NCBI GenBank assembly: GCA_017303675.1
Contig: JAFLBX010000002.1
Coordinates: 496,001-560,000, forward strand
Source: Ignavibacteria bacterium
GTDB taxonomy: Bacteria > Bacteroidota > Ignavibacteria > Tepidaquicellales > OLB5
Direction: 5' to 3'
DNA: 64,000 nt
This document shows positions 33,607 through 35,203 of the stretch, piece by piece. Position numbers and translations under genes: made by a program. Under the pieces are notes generated by a model, which was not told the origin of the DNA, made no database searches, and saw nothing but the letters and a program-made list of their open reading frames with translations. Each line of letters opens with the position of its first letter. The first letter of the stretch is position 1.

Positions 33607-34980
33607 ATGAAATTAAAATACATCGATGACATCAATCCCGCAACGGGAAAGCTTATAAAAAAGGTTAAGTGTTCCACCGAAAAGGAAATTGACCGCGCAG
33701 TAGCTAGTGCAAGGGCAGCACAGAAAAAATGGGCTTCATTAACACTTGCGCAGAGGAGCAAAATGCTTGAAGCCTGCGCTAAGGATTTTGTTAAGCAGAA
33801 AGAAAAGATCGGAAGAATAATTACCGATGAAATGGGTAAGTTGTACAGATCAGCAGTGGGTGAAACCCACGCAGTGGCTTACGGCATCCGCGAAACCATT
33901 GAACAGGCTAAAACTGCTCTTGCTGTTGAAAATTTACAGGAAGAAAACCTGCGGACTGAAATGCACCGCACACCGCTGGGAGTCTGCGCAATCATCACAC
34001 CGTGGAATTTCCCGGTAAGTATGCCGGAATCCCTGCTCTCCCCTGCCCTGATCGCCGGGAATACGGTCGTATTCAAGCCATCTGAAATGGTCCCGCTTAC
34101 AGGCAAAGCGATATTTGATATTTTCAATAAACATTTACCTAAGGGAGTTATAAACCTCGTTCAGGGTGCTGATGAAGTTGGTAATTACCTCATACACAGC
34201 AATATCGATATGATAGCTTTTGTCGGCTCTCAAGCCGTTGGCAAAATAATTATGAAAGCTGCCGGCGATAAGCTGAAACGCATTGTTTTAGAGCTTGGCG
34301 GCAAGGATCCAATGATAGTGCTGAATGATGCAGACTTAGAAAAGGCTGCGAACTTTGCAGTGAACGGTTCTTTACGCAACACAGGCCAGGTTTGTGTTTC
34401 GGTTGAAAGAATATATGTTCAGGAAAAAGCAGCCGATAAGTTCACAACACTTGTTGCCAACGGTGTAAAGAACTTTAAATACGGCAATGGTTATGATGAT
34501 TCTGTTCATATGGGTCCGCTTGTGAGTGAAAGGCAGCGCGCAAATGTACTTTCACAGGTTAAGGATGCTGTTAAAAAAGGAGCTAAACTAATTGTAGGCG
34601 GCAAAGCGCCAAAAAATAATAAGGGTTTCTTTATGGAGCCTACCCTGCTTACAAATCTTTCCCATAAACACAGGATAATGAATGAAGAGACCTTCGGTCC
34701 GGTTGTTGCAATACAGAAAGTCAAAACTGAAGATGAAGCTGTAAAGCTTGCCAATGATTCACCATTTGGACTCGGCGCTACCGTGTGGACTAAGAATAAG
34801 AAAAAGGGACTGGATATAGCTCGTAAGATCGAATCAGGCATGATAGGCGTTAACCAGGGCATCGGCGCTGTGAGCGGTACACCATGGGTCGGTGTTAAGC
34901 AGAGCGGTTACGGTTATATCGGCTCGATTGATGGCATAAGGCAGTTCACAGTACCAAGAAAAATAAGTTATAAGAAGTAA
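33607..34980 (+). CDS. Aldehyde dehydrogenase (succinate-semialdehyde type)
   Basis: 457 residues, an ALDH-superfamily protein of the shorter succinate-semialdehyde dehydrogenase class. Landmarks are PWNF (N134), KPSE (K157), LELGGK (E229) and the nucleophile in TGQVCVS (C263). It oxidises an aldehyde to the acid with NAD(P)+. The class fit is good but the substrate is not fixed by sequence. It stands alone between a dRS3-like repeat and a palindrome cluster, and no GABA transaminase gene is beside it. Confidence 0.85.
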   Translation: MKLKYIDDINPATGKLIKKVKCSTEKEIDRAVASARAAQKKWASLTLAQRSKMLEACAKDFVKQKEKIGRIITDEMGKLYRSAVGETHAVAYGIRETIEQAKTALAVENLQEENLRTEMHRTPLGVCAIITPWNFPVSMPESLLSPALIAGNTVVFKPSEMVPLTGKAIFDIFNKHLPKGVINLVQGADEVGNYLIHSNIDMIAFVGSQAVGKIIMKAAGDKLKRIVLELGGKDPMIVLNDADLEKAANFAVNGSLRNTGQVCVSVERIYVQEKAADKFTTLVANGVKNFKYGNGYDDSVHMGPLVSERQRANVLSQVKDAVKKGAKLIVGGKAPKNNKGFFMEPTLLTNLSHKHRIMNEETFGPVVAIQKVKTEDEAVKLANDSPFGLGATVWTKNKKKGLDIARKIESGMIGVNQGIGAVSGTPWVGVKQSGYGYIGSIDGIRQFTVPRKISYKK

Positions 34981-34991
34981 AAATGTGCAGT

Positions 34992-35154
34992 TCCGAACAC
35001 CATTCGGAGTAATACAAGCGAAAATCATGTTATACTCGAATCAGCGATTCGAGCTACAACAGATCAGTGAACCATTCAATTAATGTAGCTCCGAACGCTG
35101 TTCGGAGTAATTGGCACTAAAATTGAGTTGTACATGAATCAGCGATACGAGTTA
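34992..35154. repeat. Cluster of four alternating palindromes (BIME-like)
   Basis: Four hairpin units. A1: TCCGAA / TTCGGA at 34992-35008. B1: CTCGAATC / GATTCGAG at 35035-35053. A2: CTCCGAAC / GTTCGGAG at 35089-35107. B2: a degenerate copy at 35131-35154. Read in one orientation, A2 and the reverse of B1 share the frame TGTAGCTC, a five-base arm, GCT, the complementary arm, GAGTA. The units alternate orientation, and A and B have different but still self-complementary arms. Confidence 0.75.
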
Positions 35155-35203
35155 CTATAAATCAATTCATCCATAAATCCAACATAGAAGGAGCAGCTTC
35201 AAA

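Follow-up and report, generated by a model that had tools for sequence, protein, structure and literature searches.

What are the four alternating palindromes that lie between two co-directional genes in this Ignavibacteria genome, and to which system do they belong? In the window, by which we mean the whole stretch of 64,000 nucleotides analysed here, a sequence-only reading had placed at positions 34992-35154 a cluster of four palindromes in A-B-A-B orientation, with arms that differ but are each still self-complementary, and had likened it to the REP/BIME elements of RAYT transposases. Our results support that assignment. The array is very probably an intergenic BIME whose REP units belong to a RAYT (TnpAREP) system, a conclusion drawn from dispersed copies with paired arms and from a RAYT gene that carries such units and is followed by them. 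The features of the locus are listed below, with scores from the covariance model R1, which is described later in the text.

33607 to 34980, plus strand: upstream gene, aldehyde dehydrogenase (PF00171), whose stop lies 6 nt before the array
34986 to 35164, no strand assigned: BIME-like array, a tandem duplication of an A(+)-B(-) pair with period 98
34986 to 35011, plus strand: REP unit A1, foot TGCAG, arms TTCCGAAC/ATTCGGAG with one mismatch, R1 score 25.1 bits
35033 to 35058, minus strand: REP unit B1, foot TGTAG, perfect 8-bp stem CTCGAATC/GATTCGAG, GCT loop, R1 score 41.7 bits
35084 to 35109, plus strand: REP unit A2, foot TGTAG, perfect 8-bp stem CTCCGAAC/GTTCGGAG, GCT loop, R1 score 37.4 bits
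35131 to 35156, minus strand: REP unit B2, decayed, 5/8 stem pairs, R1 score 29.6 bits
35204 to 35647, plus strand: downstream gene, DUF4440 protein of 147 aa, co-directional with the upstream gene

Positions 34986-35156 contain four REP-like units, each 26 nt long and arranged A(+), B(-), A(+), B(-), so the interval first proposed was slightly short. Both arm types described there, CGAAC/GTTCG and GAATC/GATTC, are present and the alternation of orientation holds, but the uniformity of the palindromes was overstated. Only B1 and A2 are perfect hairpins with a GTAG foot, an 8-bp stem, and a GCT loop; A1 has a GCAG-type foot and seven of eight stem positions paired, and the pairing of B2 was counted by eye on the alignment. 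Folded as single-stranded DNA, the units have minimum free energies of -7.0 (B1), -8.0 (A2), -5.2 (A1), and 0 kcal/mol (B2, unfolded). Two direct repeats of 81 nt, at 34986-35066 and 35084-35164, are 73% identical, which shows that one A(+)-B(-) pair has been duplicated in tandem. An identical 25-mer of unit B1 is also found at C2:37976-38000.

A genome-wide search, which had been suggested for these units, revealed further copies in this genome and in congeners, with different yet self-complementary arms. The pattern given by the sequence-only reading, allowing up to two mismatches, occurs at seven places in the 3.65-Mb genome, against two for a backward control; one of the seven (L014) has arms that are not self-complementary and looks like a chance match. 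The core CGAATCGCTGATTCG, with at most one mismatch, occurs at nine places, and its control at none. Most copies are accompanied by a second, inverted hairpin with the arms CGAAAC/GTTTCG, and thus the family typically appears as REP/inverted-REP pairs, each some 50 nt long. The arms of the two partners differ: a CGAATC-type unit faces a CGAAAC-type unit elsewhere, and a CCGAAC-type unit faces a CGAATC-type unit in the window array. Each unit combines GTAR with a hairpin of 8 bp and a loop of the form G-C-Y, the foot being GTAG or GTAA in most of 34 aligned rows (in TGTA, columns 1-3 are at least 90% conserved and column 4 fully). Twelve of the 13 inspected places of this genome lie between genes, and the remaining one falls within a RAYT gene of the other contig.

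The model R1 was built from 34 units and used with a match threshold of E <= 0.05. A scan requiring at least six of eight pairs gave 47 rows, 33 of which were used, and unit B2 was added. The remaining 14 comprised five rows of L055 (the same places as L015), two of L086 (the same as L057), three duplicates (in L010, L018, and L058), three weaker L015 rows, and one good L090 row that was left out without a stated reason. Since the training rows include L018, L057, and L058, matches at those loci hold by construction; the genomes G009, G053, G047, and G028 were outside the training set. R1 finds 183 matches in 59 genomes, 157 of them in 13 genomes of the genus and the other 26 in 10 of the 46 genomes beyond it. 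The present genome holds 29 units at this threshold and does not reach the more than 100 copies per genome that are usual for REPs according to the available text of PMC2817692. When genome contigs were scanned for the REP pair, five were found, all labelled Ignavibacteria; the contig locus L086 is the locus L057 of G012, identical over 2508/2508 overlapping bases, and this identity assigns the genus of the window to Ignavibacteria.

Two sets of rows were used to examine the stems. Paired cells make up 94.1% of the 272 cells in the 34 distinct rows and 95.8% in the 68 distinct rows obtained from 85 model matches and fitted to R1, both percentages being biased upward because the rows came from the scan requiring at least six of eight pairs. 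In the smaller set, changes on both sides occur at five of the eight pairs, a number of pairs that is unremarkable (reached in 82 of 500 shuffles). The cells changed on both sides amount to 47, against a shuffled mean of 18.0 and two to seven in a slid-structure control; none of the 500 shuffles reaches 47. In the larger set there are 87 such cells against 28.3 in shuffles, and its further pair types are no higher than in shuffles. As the rows were partly chosen for their pairing, the two outermost pairs were tested on the nine copies found by the 15-nt core alone, a set with no row-choice bias for these pairs, and 17 of 18 were standard pairs (shuffling test, p = 0.014). A single orthologous place, compared across four species, has outer arms that read CTCG/CGAG vs CGCG/CGCG and GTC/GAC vs GCC/GGC with pairing kept; the same place also has a mismatch in this genome (G000) and G-T pairs in G001 and G005 (all by eye). 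The arms drift by paired changes because, we suggest, the pairing of the stem matters more than its sequence.

The absence of a RAYT gene from the window, as previously reported from the letters alone, was confirmed: none of the nine PF01797 matches and none of the seven RAYT-protein matches of the genome falls within C2:496001-560000. The cognate gene is on the other contig, at about C1:1060554-1061237 (L018), and its open frame reads as a RAYT (IMPNHVHVVF ... GQFWQNESYDHVIRN ... YVINNPVKAGLV). After the HUH motif and before the catalytic tyrosine, an embedded REP pair is read in frame as VGRIADSTARNSVSGYR, and a second REP pair begins 4 nt past the stop codon. The protein matches NCBIfam NF047646 (REP_Tyr_transpos) with an E-value of 1.5e-20; for the RAYTs of this genome, G012, and G009, the E-values span 4.7e-18 to 2.9e-22, and the scores of 73.6, 65.5, and 79.1 bits, respectively, fall short of the 80 bits set as the curated cut-off. 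The RAYT of this genome is not matched by Pfam Y1_Tnp, which a split of the domain by the embedded REP may explain; the G012 orthologue matches the TnpArep structure PDB 4er8 (E 1.5e-4). The motifs NHVH, FWQ, and YVINNP here, and WH and YVIQNP in G012 (by eye), are near the published NH[IFV]H, WQ, and YIxNNP without being exact. A PF01797 search alone missed this gene, which was found only through the REP copy inside it.

The nine genes that PF01797 does detect (L001-L009) were considered as partners and rejected, since their examined flanks hold other palindromes. Six of them (L001-L006; G000:C1:483378, C2:430890, C2:920023, C2:21133, C1:587270, and C2:1530258) encode Y1 transposases whose Y..NQ..HH-like motifs resemble those of subclass 1.2, a group that the available text of PMC6006769 lists as being without REPs. 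Each lies between inverted copies of its own palindromes (by eye), and those of L006 and L003 recur in the genome, at 14 palindromic places and at 17 places, respectively. L007 and L009 (G000:C1:97122 and C2:1235959) are Y1 genes flanked by their own repeated palindromes, of the CAGGTCTGAGGACCTG and GTCGTTGGTG..CACCAACGAC types, and L008 (G000:C1:437786) is a RAYT enclosed by inverted GTAGTCGCAGCC..GGCTGCGA repeats, which makes it the second GTAG-type REPtron of this genome. In other genomes, the related RAYTs L061 (G045), L063 (G017), and L064 (G020) contain different GTAG palindromes, likewise in frame and at the corresponding position past the HUH motif. A RAYT-like match in G001 (C259:1008-1148) was also rejected, since it spans only that part of the query which a REP encodes and lies where G001 itself has a REP.

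The cognate RAYT adjoins an epimerase-like gene (named by eye), and the same locus is present in G002, G012, and G009. The G002 gene is frameshifted and has a REP pair inside and another after it; the G012 gene is intact, with a pair inside and none after it within the region examined; the syntenic G009 gene is intact, without a REP inside and with five units on each side. RAYT genes accompanied by the same units, which the sequence-only reading had proposed to look for, are thus found both on the other contig and in G009. More distant members of the class include G053, whose RAYT has units inside and beside it, and G047, with units inside; an in-frame REP between HUH and Tyr is seen in G000, G012, and the G047 fragment L129. 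For G000, G002, G009, G012, G047, and G053 together, a count by eye places at least 27 of the 114 matches no more than 1 kb from a cognate RAYT. The embedded and 3' pairs differ at 2/50 positions in G000 and at 2/50 in G002, and the embedded pairs of these two genomes show four differences, two of which are the partners of a single stem pair. In the embedded REP, the replacement of a C-G stem pair by T-A from one species to another changed an encoded amino acid. Copy numbers agree with the link to the RAYT, as raw counts that ignore kinship and assembly quality: the four genus members with a strong RAYT have 29 (this genome), 28, 28, and 18 matches, and the nine others have 10, 0, 1, 13, 2, 2, 17, 9, and 0, where 13, 17, and 9 belong to G005, G008, and G010, which have no strong RAYT.

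By analogy with other TnpAREP enzymes, we infer cleavage, strand transfer, and mobility by the RAYT, including any mobility at the present day. A REP would fold on transiently single-stranded DNA; the HUH/Tyr enzyme would read the GTAG foot, the loop, and the unmismatched stem, and by cutting at a nearby dinucleotide and joining strands it would create new pairs between genes. A more speculative idea, which we consider doubtful, is that the pair inside the RAYT frame is the family's master copy: the gene would carry its own substrate, selection on the DNA hairpin would override selection on the protein there, sequence would be exchanged with the copy beside the gene, and the enzyme might bind its own gene, or regulate it, through the hairpin.

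It is about as likely as not that the array is only the relic of an old REP family, kept by vertical descent and local duplication in a genome without a working transposase. The frame of the genome's own RAYT is interrupted by a TAA at codon 39, near the N-terminus, and as a result the family may be a relic that probably no longer spreads in this genome; together with the frameshifted G002 copy, this stop makes current activity doubtful. The imperfect A1, the decayed B2, and the low copy number point in the same direction, and several BIMEs occupy orthologous places in several species, which indicates that many copies are old and vertically inherited. A relic is harder to reconcile with the persistence of stem pairing in 94-96% of cells (both figures biased upward), and later change is shown by the tandem duplication at the array and by the 3' REP pair that is absent from G012. 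Such a relic would in any case date the BIME of a RAYT system and not replace it as the best explanation.

The site itself varies among relatives. The DUF4440 gene has orthologues in three of the 12 other genus members (G002, G009, and G012), and the gap before it holds four units (two pairs) in this genome, one pair in G012 (one CCGAAC-type and one CGAAAC-type unit), no units of the REP family in G009, and two copies of an unrelated repeat (CACCCTGAGCCTGTCGAAGGG ...) in G002 (L092); from these differences we conclude that the content of the gap turns over. The empty gap of G009 weighs against a reading that we hold to be quite unlikely, namely that the hairpins are kept as RNA, either to stabilise the 3' end of the upstream mRNA or to attenuate read-through to the co-directional gene. 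An RNA role has been proposed for REPs in the available text of PMC3733652, and here the flanking genes run in the same direction, the array starts 6 nt past a stop codon, and the region as RNA folds better than shuffles (z -3.19). Nevertheless, a terminator-like site was searched for at the array and not found, units are found in either orientation, some of them within coding sequence or next to the RAYT, and one of the four in the array is unfolded. A secondary RNA effect of the hairpins may still exist. Short inverted repeats are common between genes, but it is almost certainly wrong to attribute the array to chance palindromes or to intrinsic terminators belonging to the flanking genes. 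This origin was rejected because the window contains two perfect GYAR + 8-bp + 3-nt-loop hairpins, both inside the array, where 60 dinucleotide-preserving shuffles of the window averaged 0.07 and never exceeded 1, because dispersed homologues exist, and because the array has no terminator-like site.

As an intergenic BIME of a RAYT system, the array is in other respects typical of a kind already described, and REPs inside the gene have also been published. It matters as a clear instance of REP/RAYT in Ignavibacteria: the arms change in pairs at sites inherited vertically, and the transposase gene contains a substrate hairpin. The available portions of the literature on Ignavibacteria REPs, RAYT/REPIN, and RepRanger (PMC12306157) contain no earlier report of this family. 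The RAYT system resembles TnpAREP subclass 2.4, in which, according to the available text of Quentin et al. 2018 (PMC6006769), REPs lie in frame inside the gene, generally between HUH and Tyr, and which is recorded there in Bacteroidetes, Cyanobacteria, and various phyla. Common to both are the in-frame REP between HUH and Tyr and the GTAR-footed REPs beside the gene, and the motifs NHVH, WQ, and Y-x-x-NNP come close to those of the subclass; unlike subclass 2.4 as described in that text, the present family is low-copy and belongs to an Ignavibacteria genus, and the copy embedded in its RAYT gene joins a REP and an inverted REP whose arms are of two types.

Three other systems, as presented in the same available texts and in that of PMC8266576, share part of this design. 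With the GTAG-tagged palindromes of Di Nocera et al. 2013 (PMC3733652), an account whose available text does not mention Ignavibacteria, the family shares the GTAG foot, dimers in opposite orientation, mostly intergenic positions near the 3' ends of genes, and repeat-specific REPtrons. As in the BIMEs and REPtron Ec of Escherichia coli (PMC8266576, PMC6006769), REP and inverted REP alternate and several REP subfamilies correspond to one transposase, although the E. coli REPs have a required stem bulge and the stems here are unbulged. In REPtron Sm (group 3) of Stenotrophomonas maltophilia (PMC8266576), the REP is a 23-nt element consisting of GTAG, an 8-bp perfect palindrome, and a GCT loop, which is the layout of units B1 and A2; unlike that system, the present family has a foot of either GTAG or GTAA and a RAYT that is closer to a different subclass. 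Cleavage of the Stenotrophomonas REP is affected or nearly eliminated by mismatches and not drastically by changes of stem sequence (PMC8266576), and the paired changes observed here agree with this published biochemistry, in that an unmismatched stem matters more than the exact sequence of the stem.
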